IMG/VR virus record: IMGVR_UViG_3300033571_000164
Location: 1 to 21,621 of that record
Direction: 5' to 3' (one strand)
From: a virus
DNA length: 21,621 nt
Of this stretch, positions 1-21,621 are shown piece by piece; position 1 is the stretch's first letter; every line of letters begins with the position of its first letter. Under the pieces are notes generated by a model. The model ran no database searches. It was not told the origin of the DNA and saw only the letters and a program-made list of their open reading frames with translations. The translations under genes were made by a program, and so were the position numbers.

Positions 1-264
1 ATCGTGTGCATACAGCGCCTGACGCTCTTGGAGTGCCGTTTGATTGTTTGATACGTCTGCGTTGATTTGCACTTGCTCGGTTTGAATATGTGCAATTCGT
101 TCCTCAACCTCTAGCCCCGCCTTTTTCAAAGCCAGTTCACGCTCAGTCTGCAATTGAGCCAAAGCTAGTTCATGCTTTTTGTCAGACTTGTCTTGGAAGA
201 AATCCAGTAGTTTCGGCAAACCGCCAGAAAGAAACGATACAACAGTAGTGAGCAGGGTAAACAT
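1..264 (-). CDS. N-terminal part of a putative phage holin-like protein, cut by window edge
   Basis: An ATG at 264 opens a frame that stays open to base 1, giving 88 residues without a stop, so the gene continues beyond the left edge. The visible part has a short hydrophobic, glycine-containing start (FLSGGLPKLLDFF, about residues 10-22) and then a charged helix rich in Q, E, A and L, likely a coiled coil. From memory of the family, this N-terminus resembles phage proteins whose C-terminal half carries two or three membrane helices and which are often called 3TM holins; that part lies outside the window, so the holin call is inference. The start overlaps the stop of the preceding gene as TAATG, which suggests coupled translation. 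It would be the last gene of the small membrane-protein run at the left end. Confidence 0.6.
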   Translation of the reverse strand, partial: MFTLLTTVVSFLSGGLPKLLDFFQDKSDKKHELALAQLQTERELALKKAGLEVEERIAHIQTEQVQINADVSNNQTALQERQALYAHD

Positions 265-527
265 TATTTAGCCTTTTGCCTTTCTTCCATCAATTTGACC
301 CGAACTTGCAGATCGTGAATGTCCCTGTAAATTTCTTCCTTCAATTTATGCCTAGCCTCGGCAGAAACGGGGCTATCCGTAGGCGTTCCAGCCGGTGTAA
401 TCAAAGCTGGCATAGAGCCTTCAATCTTGGTCAACCGCGTAGAAAAGTCAGACACCTGCCCCAAAAGCCAAGCAAGGGCGGCTACCAATACCGGAATAAT
501 CGCTTTTAGGACATCTTGCCAGTTCAT
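264..527 (-). CDS. Small single-pass membrane protein of the putative lysis region
   Basis: This 87-residue protein has one hydrophobic helix near the N-terminus (about residues 9-24, AIIPVLVAALAWLLGQ), then a proline/threonine-rich linker (about 38-54), then a charged helix ending in KLMEERQKAK. One membrane anchor plus a soluble helical tail fits a small phage inner-membrane protein, such as an accessory holin or a lysis regulator, but no motif fixes the role. AGGTGA lies about 4 bases before the ATG. Its stop overlaps the next start as TAATG. Its neighbours on both sides are also small membrane proteins, which is the main reason to place it in a lysis cassette. Spanin is a less likely alternative because no lipobox or periplasmic coiled coil is evident. 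Confidence 0.7.
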   Translation of the reverse strand: MNWQDVLKAIIPVLVAALAWLLGQVSDFSTRLTKIEGSMPALITPAGTPTDSPVSAEARHKLKEEIYRDIHDLQVRVKLMEERQKAK

Positions 528-530
528 AAA

Positions 531-695
531 TCACCTATGCAAAACAGGAAATGCTTGCCTAAAAAACATATGTATTTCGTGCATATACATACCAAAAACA
601 ATCACGATGTAAACACTAAATATGAACAGAAAATAAATAAGGATTGCTGCAAAAATAGATAAAAAGAAGTCTTTGATTGCATTTTTGAATGCTTC
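531..695 (-). other. -1 frame extension encoding a transmembrane helix (possible frameshift product)
   Basis: Counting back one base at the last AAG of the A9 run in the upstream gene (zero-frame codons TTA AAA AAA AAG, last base 695), the -1 frame begins GAA GCA TTC and stays open for 54 codons to a TGA at 533-531. It encodes a long hydrophobic stretch (about extension residues 10-38, starting FFLSIFAAILIYFLF) followed by a short tail ending FPVLHR. The TGA ends 3 bases before the next gene's ATG at 527, so the extension fills what would otherwise be a 74-base gap in a very compact operon. The fused product would be 136 + 54 = 190 residues. Remembered relatives of this family have a C-terminal membrane helix after a charged stretch. 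Programmed -1 frameshift, real mutation and homopolymer error all remain possible. Confidence 0.7.
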
Positions 696-1102
696 TTTTT
701 TTTTAACTTTTGCTGCTCAACCCTAGCTTGATCCTTAATTTCCTGTTGCCTTGATTCAATGATATTTGCCCTAATACCACACATCTTTTTATACATATCC
801 AATTTGCCTTGCAGGGCAAACATATCTCGCAATTCTTGCTCAGAAACTCTCAGTTCTTCTGCCCTCAAAACACAGTCCATCGCAATCGCAGTGGCAGACT
901 TTTCTTTGTTCCTTTTAGGGTCTTTGCGTATTGCCTCGGCCTCTTTAGCCGCAGCCTCAACTTCACCCTGAGCCGTAAAAAAGCTACCCAATTCCTTAGT
1001 CATTGAAGATATGTCGTGACCAAGGCTAATAGCCTCACGAATCAGCTTTACGGCGGTTTTAGCCCCCGCTACAGCAAGCCCTATTGATACTGGATCAATC
1101 AC
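602..1102 (-). CDS. Conserved phage protein, helical; zero-frame form of a possible frameshift pair
   Basis: This 166-residue frame starts with GTG at 1102, overlapping the previous stop as GTGA. The N-terminus (IDPVSIGLAVAGAKTAVKLI) is an amphipathic, alanine/glycine-rich helix, followed by SLGHDISSMTKELGSFF and a charged helical middle. This resembles a conserved family of phage proteins, usually found near the end of the structural genes, whose function I do not know. The zero-frame C-terminus after K136 (30 residues, ending LVFTS) looks unlike coding sequence shaped by selection. The -1 frame after the same point gives a convincing membrane helix. I think the N-terminal 136 residues are the real conserved domain and that the native C-terminus is probably the -1 one. 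It sits between two other small membrane proteins. Confidence 0.75.
   Translation of the reverse strand: MIDPVSIGLAVAGAKTAVKLIREAISLGHDISSMTKELGSFFTAQGEVEAAAKEAEAIRKDPKRNKEKSATAIAMDCVLRAEELRVSEQELRDMFALQGKLDMYKKMCGIRANIIESRQQEIKDQARVEQQKLKKKKHSKMQSKTSFYLFLQQSLFIFCSYLVFTS
695..701 (-). promoter_or_regulatory. A AAA AAG slippery heptamer (candidate -1 frameshift site)
   Basis: Nine As on the minus strand (bases 704-696) followed by G are read in the zero frame as TTA AAA AAA AAG, so the heptamer A AAA AAG is in the phase used by the well-known E. coli dnaX -1 site. A weak 5-bp hairpin GCATT-CAAA-AATGC follows after only 2 bases (692-679). I see no convincing stimulatory Shine-Dalgarno-like element at the usual distance upstream. 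The heptamer is certain; its use is inferred. Confidence 0.6.
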
Positions 1103-1329
1103 TTGTCGGCCTTATCGTCCAACTTATCAAATATCTTCCCGCAGATATCTTTTAATTCATCAATGTCACGCCTGTAATCAACCCTGTTAACATAGTTCAA
1201 GGGCATGGATCTTACGTCGTTGTCCAGCTTGTCCAGACTGCTTGTAATCCGGTTAAGAATATAACCACCCATAAAAGCAGCGATACCAAGCACAATATTA
1301 AAAGCAATCTGGAAGTCCATTTCAGTCAA
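1099..1329 (-). CDS. Small membrane protein with C-terminal charged helix, holin-like
   Basis: The longest form is 76 residues from a TTG at 1329. An ATG at 1320 gives a 73-residue form starting MDFQIAF and lies one base after the previous stop (TGA at 1324-1322). AGAGG lies 2 bases before the TTG and 11 before the ATG, so spacing does not settle the start; remembered homologues begin MTE/MTD, which favours TTG. One membrane helix spans about residues 8-25 (AFNIVLGIAAFMGGYIL). It is followed by SSLDKLDNDVRSMP, a YRRDIDELKD motif and a lysine/aspartate-rich end. The layout fits a small phage holin-like or lysis-accessory protein. Its TGA overlaps the next GTG. Confidence 0.75.
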   Translation of the reverse strand: MTEMDFQIAFNIVLGIAAFMGGYILNRITSSLDKLDNDVRSMPLNYVNRVDYRRDIDELKDICGKIFDKLDDKADK

Positions 1330-1933: not shown

Positions 1934-3268
1934 CTAGTATTCAAATATGATTACGCCAGCTTTACCTGCCCCGCCACTTCCTGTGGCTATGAAACCGATT
2001 GTTCCGCCACCACCAGAACCATATCCAGTTGCAGCCCCACTACTTGCATTTCCAGCGCCGCCAAAAGGCGAAACTCCACCCGAAGTAGCGTAGGTGCCTC
2101 CAGCAGCACCATTTATATTTAAAGTCCCGTTAGAAGCCGTTCCTCCAGCACCTCCAGCACCATAACCAGAACCGCCAGAACCGCCACCACCTGCGCCGCC
2201 TGTACAAGTAACAGTAGTAATTGTTTGTGTTCCGGAAGATAAACTTGTTGATCCGCCAGAAGTCCCAGCGCCTGCACCAGTACCCCCGCCCCCTCCTGCT
2301 CCAACAGTATATGTAAGAGTATTTCCAGCGGTCAAACCTGTTAAATAAACAATTGCATACCCGCCAGCACCGCCACCGCCCCCTGTATATGATCCTGAAT
2401 TATCTGCGCCACCTCCACCGCCGCCGCCTACCAGCGTAACTTTTACCTTTGTAACTCCAGCAGGAATAGTCCATGTGGCTGAAGTTCCTGTTGTTTTGAC
2501 ATCAGGAGTAGGTATAGGAGAACTACTGCCTCCCGCAGTAGCCCAAGAAAGCGTTCCAGAGCCATTTGTGGTCAGCGTTTGACCGTTTGTTCCGTCTGCG
2601 CTTGGCAAAGTGTATGTAGTCGATCCAGCAACTGCCGCAGGAGAAAGACCAACATAGCCAGAAGTTGCACCATACAGGCGCATAGTTGTGAAATAACCTG
2701 TATTTTGCGTAGTGGCACCGACAGTTCCGTTGATGTTGATAGAAGCAGTACCAGTCAAATTGGTAACAGTCCCGCTGGAAGGCGTGCCGAGCGCACCGCC
2801 GTTTACAACAAAAGCGCCTGCAGTTCCGGTATTAACGCCGAGAGCCGTAACAACACCAGTCCCTGTTGTCACAGTAGAAGGCGCTACGCCAGCGCCACCA
2901 CCAACCATAAGAGCATTTGCTGTCAATACAGCAGAAGATGCCCAAGTGGATGCGCTAGAGAAATACGGAACACCACCGGAAGTTCCGGCAACAGTGAGTG
3001 CAAGAGTTCCAGATGTCGTGATGGGTGAACCCGCTACAGAAATCAGTCCACCCGTAAAGGATTGAGCAACACTGGTTACAGAACCAGATGCGCCAGCTTT
3101 ACTGGCAATCAGTTGCACTGCACCTGCGCTGTCTTTGTAATATAGCTTGCCATCAGCAGTATTTATGTTGATTGCAAGTTCACCGTTAGCCAAATTCGCA
3201 GCGGAAGGCGTAGCAGACGCCGTAGTGCTGTAGTAGAGAGAAATAGGGGTATAGCCAGTAGCAGCCAT
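1934..3268 (-). CDS. Tail fibre with glycine-rich C-terminal receptor-binding-type domain
   Basis: This 444-residue protein starts with an N-terminal module (about 1-60, containing NLANGELAININ and DGKLYYKD) typical of phage tail fibres and probably used for docking. Residues about 64-195 form a block nearly identical to one in the 1308-residue fibre upstream. A linker with TYTLPSADGTNGQTLTT (about 215-235) follows. From about 279 to the end the protein is dominated by glycine runs (several GGGGG) with hydrophobic strands, ending AGVIIFEY. Glycine-rich C-termini are known in phage adhesins, where polyglycine helices pack and the loops bind the receptor; that structural link is inference here. 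Its start overlaps the stop of the long fibre (TGATG). Confidence 0.88.
   Translation of the reverse strand: MAATGYTPISLYYSTTASATPSAANLANGELAININTADGKLYYKDSAGAVQLIASKAGASGSVTSVAQSFTGGLISVAGSPITTSGTLALTVAGTSGGVPYFSSASTWASSAVLTANALMVGGGAGVAPSTVTTGTGVVTALGVNTGTAGAFVVNGGALGTPSSGTVTNLTGTASININGTVGATTQNTGYFTTMRLYGATSGYVGLSPAAVAGSTTYTLPSADGTNGQTLTTNGSGTLSWATAGGSSSPIPTPDVKTTGTSATWTIPAGVTKVKVTLVGGGGGGGADNSGSYTGGGGGAGGYAIVYLTGLTAGNTLTYTVGAGGGGGTGAGAGTSGGSTSLSSGTQTITTVTCTGGAGGGGSGGSGYGAGGAGGTASNGTLNINGAAGGTYATSGGVSPFGGAGNASSGAATGYGSGGGGTIGFIATGSGGAGKAGVIIFEY
2684..3079 (-). repeat. Copy A of a 132-codon block shared by both fibres
   Basis: Residues 64-195 of the 444-residue fibre match residues 994-1125 of the 1308-residue fibre at 122 of 132 positions by my count. 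The DNA is much less alike: in an aligned 144-base stretch (2781-2924 against 3917-4060) I count 37 mismatches, nearly all silent. Confidence 0.85.
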
Positions 3269-6200
3269 CAGAATGTGCCTCCTGAAATTCCACCAGTTAA
3301 AGCACCAGTAGAAGGATTACAAGTTATTGAAGAGTTTACCAATTGCCCTAAATTACCGGAAGTGGCATTAACAAAAGTCAAGTAATTTGTGGCATTTGTT
3401 GAATTTGATGTAACGGTAGTATTCGTAGCCGTTCCAGCGGTATCTGCATTCAGGTTTGCCACCTGAGTCGTGCTGGCTACCGTAAAAGGGGCAGTCCCAG
3501 TAGTTACAGTTGAAGTAATAACCCCAGAAGCAGAAACCGTTCCATTTAAAGTTATACTTGAAGTACCGCTAGTGGATCCAATAGTAATGGCTGTAGTGCT
3601 GCCTGCCGCTGAACTTGTGCCAATATTTAATGTTTTTGTTGATCCTGATGCAGTTGCGCCTGTGGCAATATTTAAGGTTTGATTTACAGTAGACCTTCCA
3701 ACAAAAATATTTCCAGTTTGACTACTGCCACCAATTTGAATGCTACCTGTTGTTTGAGAAGTGCCAATCAATATGTTATTAGCAGCCGTAGAAAAAGATA
3801 TAGCCCCAGAAGCAAATAATGTAGTAAATGATCCAGTATTAGGGGTTGTAGCGCCAACAGTGCCATTAATGTTTATAGACGCTGTTCCGGTCAGGTTTGT
3901 AACATCTCCAGAAGACGGAGTTCCTAATGCCCCTCCGTTGACCACAAACGCACCGGCAGTTCCTGTATTGACGCCCAGCGCAGTAACAACACCCGTTCCG
4001 GTTGTAACCGTTGACGGCGCAACACCTGCACCGCCACCGACTACCAGAGCATTAGCAGCTAAAGCCGCCGAAGATGCCCACGTTGACGCGCTGGAAAAAT
4101 AAGGAATGCCACCAGACGTTCCCGCAACAGTCAGAGCCAAAGTGCCGCTTGTCGTTACGGGAGACCCTGAAACAGATATCAAACCACCAGTAAAAGTTTG
4201 AGCAACCGATGTGACGGTTCCACTACCACCTGTGGATGCAATAGTGATTGACCCATTACCATTGGTAATTGTGATCCCTGAGCCAGCCGTCAATGTTGCT
4301 TTAGTAAGCGTATTTCCGGTTGAATTACCGATCAGCAACTGACCATCGGTATAACTGGTTTGACCTGTGCCGCCATATCCAACGCCAATGGTTGAGCCAT
4401 TCCAAGTCCCAGAACCAATGGTTCCTACGGTAGTAAGACTTGAACTACCCGCAAGAGGAGAAGCACCTACGGTATTGTAGGAAATTGTATAGGCAGTTCC
4501 ACCGTTAAATACGGTGCCTGATGTAGCGCCAGTCCCAGAATTATCAAATGTTAGTGAATTAGGAGTATTTGCGGTAACAGTAGTACTTCCGCCAAGGCTT
4601 ATGGAATTTCCATTAACTGTAATAGAGGAATTTGCCAAATAAGAATTGGCAATAGGCGTTGCATTCCACGTTCCAGCGGTAAGAGTCCCAACTCCAGTAA
4701 TGCCCGTATATGAGCCACTGATATATGAGGATCCAACCGTTCCTGATGTAATCTGATTGCCGTTGATGGCAATAGAAGAATTACTCGCAGAGGTAATCTG
4801 CCCCTGAGCATTTACGGCAATAGTCGGAACACTAGATGCAGAACCATATGTTGCGGCAGTAACACCAGTATTGCTGATGTTAAATGTGGTCGCAGGAGAA
4901 AGATTTAGACCAGTTCCAGCCGTATAGGTAATCGGCGCATTGAATTGCAAAAATACAAGAGCCGTCGTTCCAACCGTAATAGGCAGCGGAGTCTGCTGAA
5001 CCCACGCAGTAGAAGCATTAGTCCCAGACAAGACCAGAACATAGTCACCGGCATCAATCTCATTCGTGCCTGACCCGCTTGTGTCGTAATCTGTTGCACG
5101 GGTTAGAATAAATGGAGAACCAGCACTACCAGCTTGAGTTACAGTGTAAATACCGTTATATGGCTCGTTTGCTCCGGCTTCATCTTTAACCAGCAAACGC
5201 TGCGTTACTGTCGGAGAACCGCCCCCAAAAGACAGCGCACCATTGGCATTAGCCGTGATGGTTGCCCCAACACCAGATGATCCGTTGTTGTAGGTATAGG
5301 CAGGAAGTGCTGCGGTAGAAGCATAGTTAACAGGCTGATGGTAATTAAGACCAGAGGCAATAGAGTCAACATATTGCTTGGTCGCAACCTGCAAATCAGA
5401 TACAGGATCTTGCGTTAGAGTAATTGAGGTTAAACCAGCAAGAGTCGTTGCAGTCCCGCCAAGGGATATTGAAGTTGAACCAATAGTCAGCGAACTATTC
5501 GTCAACGCGCTATTCGGAATGTTTGTCAGCGTATTTGTAGAACCGCTGATAGACTTGTTTGTCAGCGTTTGACTGCCGGTCAACGTGGCAACAGTAGAAT
5601 CAATTGCAATCGTTACTGCAGCCGATCCGTCATAAGACGTTCCGGACAACCCTGTGCCGATAGTAAGCGCATTAGGATTAACAGCCGTAATGGTAGTAGA
5701 ACCGCCAAGACTGACGGATGATCCATTAATCGTAACGGAACTATTTGTCAGGCTGCTATTGCCAATATTAGTCAGTGTATTGCTTGCGCCGCTGATAGAC
5801 TTGTTGGTTAAAGTCTGTGTATCGGAGAGCGTTGCAACAACAGTATTGTCGATTGCAACAGTGCCGCTAGATGTGATTGTCCCGCCTGTCAAACCAGTTC
5901 CTGCTGTAATGCTGGTAACAGTTCCACCAGAACCTGTCGCAGACAGAGTTCCACCAGCAAAAGAAACGCCACTGCCAATCGTTACATTGCTAAATCCACC
6001 AGAACCATCACCATACAGAATACTTGTTCCGCTGGTTGCTGGGGCATAATCAGTGCCAGATGTAGCTGCACTAATGGCTGTTCCGTTACCTTTTAATATT
6101 CCGGTAACGGTTGTGGTCAGCGTAATTGCAGGAGTCGCGCCACCACTTGATGTTCCGGCAAATCCATTTGTGGGAACAATAGAAACAGCAGTAACAGTGC

Positions 6201-7194
6201 CACTACCCTTGCTATTGAATGTTGACCAGTCAGCGGATGACAAATATCCATCAGCAAACGCAGTGGCTTGTGGAATGGAAATTGCCGGAGTATTCCCACC
6301 AGAACTGACAATAGGCGCAGTTCCGGTAACACTGGTAACAGTCCCGTTTCCCTTGTTGTTAAACGTAGTCCAATCCGCAGAACTTAGAACCCCGCGATTT
6401 GTAGCAGATGCGGTAGGAACATTTAACGTAATAACAGGTGTCGTAGTAGGGTCGGTAACCGTAGAACTAAGGTCAGTCCCAGAAGTCCCCAGAGTAAGGG
6501 CGGAAACATAAGTAACAGTCCCGCCAGCCGTTGATGGAGTTAAAGATACAGATGTCAATCTGCCTTTGTTATCAACAGTAACAACAGGAATTTGATTTGT
6601 TGACCCGTATGTCCCCGGCGTTACCGCTGTATCCGCAAGGCTGAAAGTGGGGTCACCAGACGCCCCTGTTCCATTGGTAACGTCAATTTCACCTGCAGTT
6701 CCGGTCAAAACCCTCGGAACTACCGTCCCATTATTGGGAAAAGCCGCAAATCCAGCCCCAGATACATTAGCCAGAGAAGAAACCAGACCATCTAGGCTAA
6801 TTGTGGGGTCTCCAGCCTGCCCATCCCCATCCGCTATAACGAGTCCAGAGCCGCTTACAGCGATTTCTCGCGCAATTACGGTATCTGCGTCCGTTTTTAC
6901 CTGAAAACCCGTTCCTGAGCCGTTTAGAGAAGCCGCAGCCCCCTGCAAAGACAGACTTATGGTCGATTGTGCGCCGTTATCGGTCACTCCAATCCCAAAA
7001 GTGCTGGAAAGCGCCCTGCTATTCGGCAGGGTAGGCTCCTGATTGACCGTAATAAACGTCTGAGTCTGCGACGGAGCAGCAGAAATAGCCCCAGTGGTAG
7101 TTCTGACGGTAATTCCGTCCTGCACAACAGGAACAGATTCAGCCCCAGTGAGAGGCTGCGCCGCAGGCAGGTCAGTTATTTTTACGTTTGCCAT
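3268..7194 (-). CDS. Long tail fibre / structural repeat protein (1308 aa)
   Basis: The N-terminus (ITDLPAAQPLTGAESVPVVQ) is a docking-type module shared with the 194-residue protein at 9193-9777. A long threonine/serine/glycine-rich shaft follows, with recurring units: LSSADW-x-TFN-x-KG at about residues 269 and 316, TLTNKSISG with SLGGS at about 455 and 538, and a related NSSITVNGNSISLGGS further on. At about 595-755 there is a distinct module (DLQVATKQYVD, then LLVKDEAG, NGIYTVTQ, TTALVFLQF) that recurs in many phage fibres. The block shared with the next fibre covers 994-1125. After it come short beta-type repeats such as LNIATGAT, LNIGTSSA and ITIGSTSG. It probably forms an elongated trimer that reaches the host surface. 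Its start overlaps the preceding stop as TAATG. Confidence 0.88.
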   Translation of the reverse strand: MANVKITDLPAAQPLTGAESVPVVQDGITVRTTTGAISAAPSQTQTFITVNQEPTLPNSRALSSTFGIGVTDNGAQSTISLSLQGAAASLNGSGTGFQVKTDADTVIAREIAVSGSGLVIADGDGQAGDPTISLDGLVSSLANVSGAGFAAFPNNGTVVPRVLTGTAGEIDVTNGTGASGDPTFSLADTAVTPGTYGSTNQIPVVTVDNKGRLTSVSLTPSTAGGTVTYVSALTLGTSGTDLSSTVTDPTTTPVITLNVPTASATNRGVLSSADWTTFNNKGNGTVTSVTGTAPIVSSGGNTPAISIPQATAFADGYLSSADWSTFNSKGSGTVTAVSIVPTNGFAGTSSGGATPAITLTTTVTGILKGNGTAISAATSGTDYAPATSGTSILYGDGSGGFSNVTIGSGVSFAGGTLSATGSGGTVTSITAGTGLTGGTITSSGTVAIDNTVVATLSDTQTLTNKSISGASNTLTNIGNSSLTNSSVTINGSSVSLGGSTTITAVNPNALTIGTGLSGTSYDGSAAVTIAIDSTVATLTGSQTLTNKSISGSTNTLTNIPNSALTNSSLTIGSTSISLGGTATTLAGLTSITLTQDPVSDLQVATKQYVDSIASGLNYHQPVNYASTAALPAYTYNNGSSGVGATITANANGALSFGGGSPTVTQRLLVKDEAGANEPYNGIYTVTQAGSAGSPFILTRATDYDTSGSGTNEIDAGDYVLVLSGTNASTAWVQQTPLPITVGTTALVFLQFNAPITYTAGTGLNLSPATTFNISNTGVTAATYGSASSVPTIAVNAQGQITSASNSSIAINGNQITSGTVGSSYISGSYTGITGVGTLTAGTWNATPIANSYLANSSITVNGNSISLGGSTTVTANTPNSLTFDNSGTGATSGTVFNGGTAYTISYNTVGASPLAGSSSLTTVGTIGSGTWNGSTIGVGYGGTGQTSYTDGQLLIGNSTGNTLTKATLTAGSGITITNGNGSITIASTGGSGTVTSVAQTFTGGLISVSGSPVTTSGTLALTVAGTSGGIPYFSSASTWASSAALAANALVVGGGAGVAPSTVTTGTGVVTALGVNTGTAGAFVVNGGALGTPSSGDVTNLTGTASININGTVGATTPNTGSFTTLFASGAISFSTAANNILIGTSQTTGSIQIGGSSQTGNIFVGRSTVNQTLNIATGATASGSTKTLNIGTSSAAGSTTAITIGSTSGTSSITLNGTVSASGVITSTVTTGTAPFTVASTTQVANLNADTAGTATNTTVTSNSTNATNYLTFVNATSGNLGQLVNSSITCNPSTGALTGGISGGTF
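3820..4215 (-). repeat. Copy B of the 132-codon fibre block
   Basis: This is the matching segment in the long fibre (residues 994-1125). The ten substitutions from copy A are mostly conservative (I/V, S/T, A/S). Silent divergence is high, which argues against a recent duplication or recent gene conversion. Confidence 0.85.
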
Positions 7195-18568: not shown

Positions 18569-20437
18569 TTATTTCCTTAATTGTTTATTCATTACGGCAA
18601 GGCGCATGGCATCCATGCTTACAGCCCCACCTCGCTTCATAGGCTGCTCAGGAACCTCTTCCTGCGGCGCTGCAAGAGTGCCTGCACCTACCCCAGCCGG
18701 AATCATCTGATACAGCGGCTGACCCTTTCCTGTGATTTCCTCGCGCATCTGCGGGGTGATATCGAAAGAGTGAACCGGAATGTTTTCATTCCTGAATGAA
18801 TCCATCAGGGCATTGCGTTGCGCCTGATCCATTGCCAATACTTCATCCTTTGAAACCAGACCCTGATCAATAGCATCCTGAATGGATGAAATAGGCTGCT
18901 TTCTCGGCACAGATAGTTCATGCTGCCCAACACTAGCGCCCCACTTCTTGCCGTATTCGTTCAGGAAAGATGGAAGCATCTTGTCGTAAAAACCTTCCAT
19001 ACCCTCGCCGCCAACCTTCAAATCAAGATTAGAAAGCGTCATCGACCCCTGACGCATACGGGAAGTCCCTTCATACGGAGTCCCAACATTAGCCATGATC
19101 TTTTCGGCCAGTTCCTTACCAACATACTCCGGCAATTTATCCTTTTGTATATCTTCTTCATGAAGATTAGCAAGCCCTGATTTCTTATCTGTGCCAATGA
19201 TGCTGATAGTTCCGTCTTCATTGTGCTTGTAAGAAATTTCGCCAAAGTGTTTACTGAGGTCATAACGCTTCGCCTGCTCCGCCCCCGGCGTAATCACAAC
19301 CTTGTCGTAACCCTTTTTAACTGCATCGTCCAGCAACCTCTTCATCGCCAGTTCATGCCAGTTTTGTTTAAAAGGCGCATCTGGAACCGCTTGAGATTGT
19401 TTGGCTTCAAAATCTTTTTGCGCTTGACGATTAATTGCGTGTAATCCGCGTTTTCTTGCTTCAATCATGTCATTCATCGGGCCTTCTGAAGCGCCACGAA
19501 TCATCACAGGATTATTATTTTCTAACAAAACATTTACTTGATCACTTCCGCCCAATTCAGGCAAACCAATATGCTTATTGATTGAATTCTTTAGTTCAAT
19601 CCATTCAAGTCCATCTTGACCTTGCGTCTTAACGAATTCGTCAACCGTCATTTGCTTTCCAGTTATTTCTGGAATGTTTGGCTGAAATTCTTGTTTATAT
19701 CTTTTTTTACGCCCAGCTTGATGCCAGTCAGACTGAATCTCCTCCACATGGAGAATCTTTTCCCCATTAGGGCCAACCCTGTCAGATACCCTTGCGTGCG
19801 CTAGGATGTTTGGTTCATCGAAGTGAGTAGAAACAAAATCAGATACGCCCTCTCTGTCTGCTTTCGCAATCGCTTCGTTATATTCAGCCCTTCCCATGTT
19901 TTTAATACTAGGACGATAGCTTGGAATCATCAGCTTTATCTCGCGGTAGTTCTTCCCGCCCGGTAGCTGATACTTTTCATATTGCGATGTGCCATGACGC
20001 AATTCTTTCAAATAATCTTCTGCATCATCATAATCGCGGAATGACTTCACCACGTTGCTGTAATCATCAACAACGTCAAACCTGTCGTTTAATTCATCAT
20101 GTTCTATACGATGACGAATGTCTGCCGGCCCCTTCTCCACCTTCTCCATTACCTGCGCCGCAGGATGCTCTGCCGCAGCCTTCGTCAATTGTTCCTTTGT
20201 TACCTTTGGCTGCTTCAACAATTCCTGAATGACAGGACGATCCTTTAACTCCTTGCTGACGCCCTTTGTTTTCTTGAGTATCTGCTCTATCTGCTGACCC
20301 GTTCCCTTATTCTGGGTAATTTCGGAAATGGCTTTGTCCAGCGGGGAATAGAAAGGCTTAGCAGGCATGGGAGCCTCACCCAGACCCCTCACCAATGATT
20401 TGGCAATTTGCTTCCCAACCTCTTTAAGCGGACTCAC
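18569..20437 (-). CDS. Polyvalent-type phage protein, possible virion-borne effector (622 aa)
   Basis: Conserved-looking blocks are HVEEIQSDWHQAGRKKRY (230-247), FKQNWHELAMKRLLDDAVKK (356-375), GYDKVVITPGAEQAKRYDLS (376-395), FYDKMLPSFLNEYGKKWGAS (483-502) and HSFDITPQMREEITGKGQPL (556-575). I recognise this set from large polyvalent proteins of phages and mobile elements, where it accompanies toxin, protease or ART domains; its own activity is unknown to me. The polar motif E232-E233-I-Q-S-D-W-H and the WHELAMKR helix could form an active site. The N-terminal 110 residues are helical and basic. The C-terminus ends MKRGGAVSM and a basic tail. It overlaps the ART-like gene by ATGA and lies two bases before the portal, so it may be packaged and injected. 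Confidence 0.7.
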   Translation of the reverse strand: MSPLKEVGKQIAKSLVRGLGEAPMPAKPFYSPLDKAISEITQNKGTGQQIEQILKKTKGVSKELKDRPVIQELLKQPKVTKEQLTKAAAEHPAAQVMEKVEKGPADIRHRIEHDELNDRFDVVDDYSNVVKSFRDYDDAEDYLKELRHGTSQYEKYQLPGGKNYREIKLMIPSYRPSIKNMGRAEYNEAIAKADREGVSDFVSTHFDEPNILAHARVSDRVGPNGEKILHVEEIQSDWHQAGRKKRYKQEFQPNIPEITGKQMTVDEFVKTQGQDGLEWIELKNSINKHIGLPELGGSDQVNVLLENNNPVMIRGASEGPMNDMIEARKRGLHAINRQAQKDFEAKQSQAVPDAPFKQNWHELAMKRLLDDAVKKGYDKVVITPGAEQAKRYDLSKHFGEISYKHNEDGTISIIGTDKKSGLANLHEEDIQKDKLPEYVGKELAEKIMANVGTPYEGTSRMRQGSMTLSNLDLKVGGEGMEGFYDKMLPSFLNEYGKKWGASVGQHELSVPRKQPISSIQDAIDQGLVSKDEVLAMDQAQRNALMDSFRNENIPVHSFDITPQMREEITGKGQPLYQMIPAGVGAGTLAAPQEEVPEQPMKRGGAVSMDAMRLAVMNKQLRK

Positions 20438-21621
20438 AGCGGTGTCTCCTGCACAATCAGGTCATCAGAGGTAATGCCGCCTTCTGATTTGTGGACAACT
20501 CCGCCCTTCTTCTCCCTGCCCACAATGTTCATCAGGTCTTCACCACCGGGAAATACCACGAAGTTGCGCGTCCCTTCTCCTGCTGCACGAGAGGATTGGT
20601 CTAGGTATTTGATGCCGGGGATACCCATTGAGCGAAGTCGTTCGCTTGTTGGAATTTGATAGTTTTCAGGATCAAACAACCCCGGACTATAGCCTTCATC
20701 CATCATAATCATGCGATGAAGTTCTGCCCCAGTAGTTTCGCTATCTATTTTTCCGCTTTCCTTCCTTGCATCATCAACATACTTTTCCCAATTAGCGTTA
20801 TTGATATAATCAACTGGATCCCCACCAGTTTCATCAGCCCAATCATTAGCCTCTTGGCGAAGTCGCATATCTGCAATCTTTTCTGCCTCCTTATTACTAA
20901 TCCCGATTTCGTAGTCTGTTCCTTTTAAAAACTTTTGAATCTTCGGCTGCTCACTCAGCGGCTTATCCCAATCCAGCATCTTCGCTATGGCTTCGTCGGG
21001 GAGGTTTACAGCATAAAATGATCCGGGCTTTTCGCCCATTTTCAAAGAAACACTGCCACGCTTGGACAATTCATCTTTCAATTGCTTTGCATAAGGAACA
21101 CCTTCAGGCCATTCGTCAGCATAATCTTTGATGCGCCGATCCAGATTATCCATAATGATTTTCTGAATAGCTTTATCTCCACCAGAAGAATGCGCCGCCA
21201 CTAAATCCGATTCGTCAATCAACAAATCCTCAATAAGAGAGGCATGGATATTTTCTTTTGTCGAACTGGTTTTCGGTGAATAGTCAAATTGATTGTATGG
21301 GCCTATAGCCTTATTACCAACTTTCAATCTAACTATCTCAGGCCTTCCCGCCAATCGCGCCCTATATTCGTGAGCAGTCCCCGGCGCTTCAGCCAAATAA
21401 TGTCCATACCCATATGCCTGCGCCCCCTCTCCAGTCCCAATCTTTGTAGGGTCGAACTCCCCTAAAGGATTCTTCTCAGTCGGCGGGAAACGATGTGGAG
21501 TGCCATGCCATGTAATCAGCGGCCTCGGCGCTACACCAGCCAGCGCACCAGCAAGCGGCCCTTCCCCCTTCGTCATGGCTTGATGAATGCGGTAGGCAGC
21601 TTCGTTTGCCAGTGCTTTGGA
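20434..21621 (-). CDS. ADP-ribosyltransferase-like polyvalent protein, start beyond window edge
   Basis: The frame is open from the right edge to TGA at 20434. An ATG at 21576 exists, but 15 further in-frame residues (SKALANEAAYRIHQA) reach the edge and look like the same protein, so this is probably the C-terminal part of a larger one. Counting from that Met, WHGTPHRF (23-30) and FDPTKIGTGEGAQAYGYGHY (41-60) followed by LAE match the first two motifs of ART domains in polyvalent proteins (histidine H24, tyrosine Y60). GIPGIKYLDQSSRAAGEGTR (318-337) with NFVVF then PGGED matches the C-terminal core. About 250 residues lie between, including a long helical insert. It likely transfers ADP-ribose from NAD to a host target; the third catalytic residue is not assigned. 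The end has EKKGG and KSEGG motifs. Confidence 0.78.
   Translation of the reverse strand, partial: SKALANEAAYRIHQAMTKGEGPLAGALAGVAPRPLITWHGTPHRFPPTEKNPLGEFDPTKIGTGEGAQAYGYGHYLAEAPGTAHEYRARLAGRPEIVRLKVGNKAIGPYNQFDYSPKTSSTKENIHASLIEDLLIDESDLVAAHSSGGDKAIQKIIMDNLDRRIKDYADEWPEGVPYAKQLKDELSKRGSVSLKMGEKPGSFYAVNLPDEAIAKMLDWDKPLSEQPKIQKFLKGTDYEIGISNKEAEKIADMRLRQEANDWADETGGDPVDYINNANWEKYVDDARKESGKIDSETTGAELHRMIMMDEGYSPGLFDPENYQIPTSERLRSMGIPGIKYLDQSSRAAGEGTRNFVVFPGGEDLMNIVGREKKGGVVHKSEGGITSDDLIVQETPL

Follow-up and report, generated by a model that had tools for sequence, protein, structure and literature searches.

A conserved T-A9-G run and predicted -1 recoding in a phage membrane protein of the PHROG 32327 family

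A phage gene of the PHROG 32327 family very probably undergoes programmed -1 recoding at a T-A9-G run, judging from the conservation of this run and of two overlapping reading frames within one close-knit phage group. Standard decoding of the gene would yield a protein of 166 aa whose tail is under little constraint. In part of the expression events the reading would move into the -1 frame at the A-run, either by slipping of the ribosome on A_AAA_AAG (A_AAA_AAA in one relative, L008) or by addition of one A by RNA polymerase, and these events would give a protein of 190 aa with a C-terminal membrane helix. The comparison of relatives indicates that the site and both frames are conserved, that the -1 frame is selected, that its product is homologous to membrane proteins encoded in a single frame and that there is no alternative start. 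Both forms are presumably made in useful amounts, and their ratio would then matter.

The gene, the A-run and the encoded protein

The window, i.e. the whole stretch of DNA that was analyzed, is IMG/VR record IMGVR_UViG_3300033571_000164, a complete virus record of 21,621 bp. The features relevant to the recoding are the following.

602..1102, minus strand: zero-frame gene with GTG start at 1102, 166 aa, PHROG 32327 family
695..705, minus strand: conserved T-A9-G slippery run, with the A's at 704-696, the G at 695 and the heptamer A_AAA_AAG at 701-695
531..695, minus strand: -1 frame extension past the predicted shift, ended by the TGA at 533-531; fused product of 190 aa
600..656, minus strand: predicted membrane helix, the 19 residues of highest hydrophobicity in the -1 frame (Kyte-Doolittle 2.86)
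602..694, minus strand: zero-frame tail past the site, weakly constrained (pN/pS 0.69) and of moderate hydropathy (1.50)
1099..1329, minus strand: upstream gene, 76 aa, PHROG 462, overlapping the start of the recoded gene (GTGA)
264..527, minus strand: next gene, 87 aa, with one hydrophobic segment and no family match at E 0.001
525..536, minus strand: junction AGGTGATTTATG, holding a Shine-Dalgarno-like AGG(TG), the -1 stop TGA and the start ATG of the next gene

Across the run, the zero frame of the minus strand reads TTA AAA AAA AAG AAG; the entire 21.6-kb window has no other A/T run of eight or more. An initial annotation, made from the sequence of the window, had placed a zero-frame A_AAA_AAG heptamer at 701-695, and both the coordinates and the frame were borne out. 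The same holds for the open -1 frame and its strong hydrophobic helix (the encoded stretch is FFLSIFAAILIYFLFIFSVYIVIVFG), for the 3 nt between the -1 stop and the ATG of the next gene at 527, and for the gap of 74 nt that separates the end of the zero-frame gene from that next gene. The observation of a slippery run followed by an open, helix-encoding -1 frame is therewith confirmed. The gene had further been proposed to give a soluble form of 166 residues and a membrane-anchored form of 190. The lengths and the membrane helix stand, but the term 'soluble' is doubtful because the zero-frame tail is itself fairly hydrophobic (best 19-residue Kyte-Doolittle value 1.50, versus 2.86 for the -1 frame).

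The profile of PHROG 32327, a family of unknown function, matched residues 1-162 of the protein over profile positions 1-146 of 152 (E 7e-9). Searches with the recoded gene gave no match in Pfam, none in isolated phages by tblastn and none in bacterial genomes. In BFVD the matches at E 0.001 or better were to uncharacterised proteins, all but one, which is unnamed, listed as proteins of uncultured Caudovirales phages. As a stand-in for the recoded 190-aa product we modelled the single-frame homologue L009 (L009:3001-3558; 21 sequences). The model (mean pLDDT 89.7, pTM 0.62) contains a bundle of three helices of 23-30 residues, followed by one helix of 85 residues with the membrane segment near its end. 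A fold search of the PDB returned only weak matches to helical bundles (E 0.4 or worse), including N-terminal domains of syntaxins. The modelled likeness to the syntaxin bundle (Foldseek E about 1) is likely convergent, a matter of shape and not of kinship.

Conservation and selection among relatives

Scans of IMG/VR yielded eight relatives with the same arrangement (L001-L006 and L007/L008). Since L007 and L008 represent one virus from two samples (2997 of 3000 bases identical), these are seven distinct relatives, and together with the window they form a recoding group of eight distinct sequences in nine assemblies, all from one collection. Two extra scans of IMG/VR with group-specific patterns returned the same eight contigs and that of L009, and none that was new. 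The seven relatives show 70-96% amino-acid identity, and pairwise nucleotide identity among the eight distinct sequences is 64-95%. All eight have exactly nine A's followed by a G, and a recoded product of exactly 190 aa. The heptamer A_AAA_AAG lies in the zero frame in seven of them (the window and L001-L006). L008 has its run shifted by 4 nt and composed differently, as GAG AAA AAA AAA GAC; this run is still A9G and still leads into the -1 frame, with A_AAA_AAA as the heptamer instead of A_AAA_AAG. The A9 is hence found in two codon phases within the group. Thus, the alignment of homologues that had been suggested as a check on the initial annotation finds the A9 and both frames kept in seven distinct relatives.

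The third codon positions upstream of the site are near saturation, with 12 of the 125 degenerate ones invariant, and at the site itself (codons 133-137) every third position is invariant. Codons 133-135 provide the cleaner evidence because the last two codons are also held by the -1 frame; codon 133 specifies Leu, Val or Ile, yet always ends in A. In an alignment of six sequences no invariant stretch of the gene exceeds the 14-nt TAAAAAAAAAGAAG, and the second longest measures 8 nt. Between the site and the zero-frame stop, pN/pS is 0.29 for the -1 frame and 0.69 for the zero frame; past that stop the values are 0.25 and 1.51, respectively. The zero-frame stop occurs at three different positions in the group, whereas the distance from the -1 stop to the following ATG is 3 nt throughout the eight distinct sequences. 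The purifying ratios and the fixed -1 stop, set against the shifting zero-frame stop, therefore argue that the -1 extension is a selected protein sequence. Its hydropathy over the best 19 residues ranges from 2.5 to 3.0 within the group, that of the zero-frame tails from 1.3 to 1.7. The tail had been described as non-native, and the ratios of 0.69 and 1.51 and the varying stop agree with that description: it appears to be at most weakly selected. Since the tail is little selected and its stop variable, the short form may be a mere by-product. A slippery site that is conserved with both frames across diverged relatives, combined with selection on the -1 frame and a weakly selected zero-frame tail, supports the original proposal of a -1 recoding site that adds a membrane helix.

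The recoded products align without gaps, across both the junction and the helix, with L009, in which the helix is encoded in one frame without a slippery run. In all 39 further homologous loci the helix likewise lies in the zero frame (best 19-residue hydropathy 2.3-3.1), and the single-frame state is for that reason the norm of the family. The initial annotation had held that homologues with a single frame and no slippery run would speak against recoding. All the more distant homologues examined are of this kind and none of the seven close relatives is; the former show the usual arrangement of the family and do not refute recoding in the close group. Trees built from the N-terminal part place L009 within or next to the recoding group, with weak support, and do not reject a single origin of recoding (p-AU 0.26). 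The site may have been lost in L009; alternatively, L009 may be the closest outgroup of the recoding members. Its locus, on the 133-kb contig IMGVR_UViG_3300042987_001940, is AT-rich, with 34% GC versus 44-49% in the others. On comparative grounds the anchored form appears to be the selected product, matching what is the norm in the family: a tail-anchored helical-bundle protein beside lysis genes.

Level of the shift and alternative readings

Transcriptional slippage is reported for Thermus dnaX, mxiE and IS elements, and slipping of RNA polymerase on the A9, by which one A is added to part of the transcripts, has in our estimate an even chance of being the route taken here. It would account for a count of exactly nine A's in either codon phase, even in L008 with its run displaced by 4 nt, and for the A at the end of codon 133, which the heptamer does not need, although that constraint concerns a single column. 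The run also corresponds to what is expected of programmed transcriptional slippage, namely an A/T homopolymer of about nine or more whose length is conserved. Nine is the length at which many bacteria avoid such runs, and the dnaX gene of Thermus slips at an A9 (PMC1088944). What argues the other way is that seven of the eight distinct sequences have A_AAA_AAG, which is the perfect heptamer for E. coli. That same right-frame heptamer speaks for ribosomal frameshifting, in which tandem lysine tRNAs slip back one base as in dnaX of E. coli, and to which we assign a substantial but less than even chance. Few heptamers are as prone to shifting in E. coli as A_AAA_AAG (PMC5009743; PMC4066793). The A_AAA_AAA of L008 is much less shift-prone in that organism (PMC5009743), however, and the heptamer leaves the conservation of the whole A9 unexplained. 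Moreover, neither a stem-loop nor a conserved Shine-Dalgarno-like element accompanies it: alignment folding of the group gave no consensus pairs for a downstream stem-loop (z-scores -1.16 to 0.57), and an upstream Shine-Dalgarno-like stimulator at 6-17 nt before the motif was at the edge of that range in three of the eight sequences and absent or out of range in five. A downstream AAGAAG/CTTCTT complementarity in the window, seen by eye, found no support in the alignment folding. The lack of a conserved stimulator counts in favour of the transcriptional route. Considering the conserved run length, the two codon phases and this lack, we slightly favour transcriptional slippage, to which ribosomal slippage may add. 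The dnaX-type ribosomal shift put forward initially is thus upheld with respect to the right-frame heptamer in seven of the eight sequences, but slippage at the A9 fits at least as well.

The remaining readings do without recoding. A9 homopolymers can undergo phase variation (PMC3711429), and replication slippage on the A-run could in that manner toggle the helix between genomes. Such a switch should show both states and one was found: the run is out of frame and of equal length throughout the nine assemblies, with no joined state among them, and L007 and L008, as two assemblies of one virus, agree. We consider it very unlikely for that reason. Homopolymers are also error-prone, and a one-base change or an error in the A9 run was the rival that the initial annotation itself had named. 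We rejected it, as eight other assemblies (seven distinct relatives) have the A9 at equal length and in two codon phases; decay of the gene is countered by purifying selection, which acts on the -1 frame all the way to its stop, so that error or decay is highly improbable. Finally, the open and selected -1 frame might represent an independent small gene that has a start of its own and is not fused to the upstream frame. However, none of the eight distinct sequences has an ATG, GTG or TTG in this frame upstream of the helix, which excludes a separate start, and the fused product matches the single-frame homologues across the junction. This reading deserves hardly any credence.

Genomic context, possible role and comparison with known systems

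In the relatives L046 and L047 the gene is directly followed by a holin (GTA_holin_3TM, PF11351, E 9e-10) and a GH108 endolysin (E 2e-28), and the upstream gene order of L047 is that of the window. The record of the window ends before any holin would be reached, and the lysis genes are those seen in these relatives, where their place beside the gene agrees with the lysis-like cassette suggested earlier. All eight distinct sequences of the recoding group share AGGTGATNTATG at the junction with the next gene (window 525-538). The gene behind it is of three kinds, an 87-aa MNWQD protein, a holin or an MFTLL protein, and one kind resembles the gene at 1-264 of the window (PHROG 6637). With three different genes behind one AGGTGATNTATG junction, it looks as if genes were exchanged at a common element for ribosome binding and termination. 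Because the -1 stop lies so close to the following start, recoded ribosomes might also promote translation of that gene through coupling; in many single-frame relatives the junction is just as tight (-4 to +2 nt).

Elsewhere in the window, two adjacent Gly/Ser/Thr-rich repetitive proteins of 444 and 1308 aa (1934-7194) have near-identical segments in common, e.g. TLALTVAGTSGG and ALGVNTGTAGAFVVNGGALGTPSSG; they are probably fibre proteins with exchanged or duplicated modules. At 18569-21621 two large adjacent proteins overlap by 4 nt; the first has 622 aa, and the second, truncated where the record ends, has at least 395 aa. Neither has a confident Pfam match, and the 622-aa protein has a marginal match to an endolysin PHROG alone.

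With respect to function, recoding would lower the anchored share and add an unanchored or loosely membrane-associated form. As to the roles of effector and regulator that had been proposed for the two forms, one form could possibly antagonise the other. The next gene is a holin in several relatives, and A9G recoding might serve as a dose or timing control of lysis, which we regard as unlikely. If it did, only recoded expression would yield the anchored protein and bring ribosomes to a stop 3 nt short of the next gene, and the frequency of slipping would set both the anchored-to-unanchored ratio and the translation of the lysis genes. Annotation pipelines are likely to truncate the recoded protein and to miss its membrane helix.

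The closest comparison is with the single-frame members of PHROG 32327 (L009 to L097), which have the N-terminus MIDPVSIG and the C-terminal membrane helix of the recoding group, and often a tightly spaced, holin-type next gene. They differ in that the helix is encoded in one frame without the A9 run, and one-frame and recoded relatives together provide a natural contrast for what recoding adds. The dnaX gene has the same A_AAA_AAG within an A9, which is used for a ribosomal -1 shift in E. coli and for A9 slippage in Thermus thermophilus, and has two products that differ at the C-terminus, as predicted here. However, the long product of dnaX comes from the standard frame, whereas here the long, membrane-anchored product would come from recoding; E. 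coli dnaX has a stem-loop and a Shine-Dalgarno stimulator, of which none was found here, and the proteins are unrelated. In the transcriptional realignment of IS elements and mxiE, slippage on an A- or U-run is needed for the longer fused product, and the same would hold here. Those products are a transposase or a regulator; in our case the product would be a phage membrane protein beside lysis genes. The family also offers a clean test of ribosomal versus transcriptional slippage.

Among tailed phages, the tail assembly chaperones are the main known case of recoding. G/GT of lambda resembles our case in that a phage gene has a conserved -1 shift close to its end, which yields a minor product with a C-terminal extension. 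The frameshifted G/GT gene has the tail tube gene on one side and that of the tape measure on the other. Our gene does not take that position, its neighbours being small genes after fibre-like proteins, followed by holin and endolysin in relatives. By position and family it is a non-tail gene, with a membrane helix as its extension and with another slippery site and other neighbours. Searches of the literature within reach, with most subscription journals outside it, found no report of recoding for the PHROG 32327 family. The trick is known in principle and appears new for this phage protein family, in which it would constitute a conserved recoding event in an uncharacterised membrane protein beside lysis genes, outside the tail chaperones.
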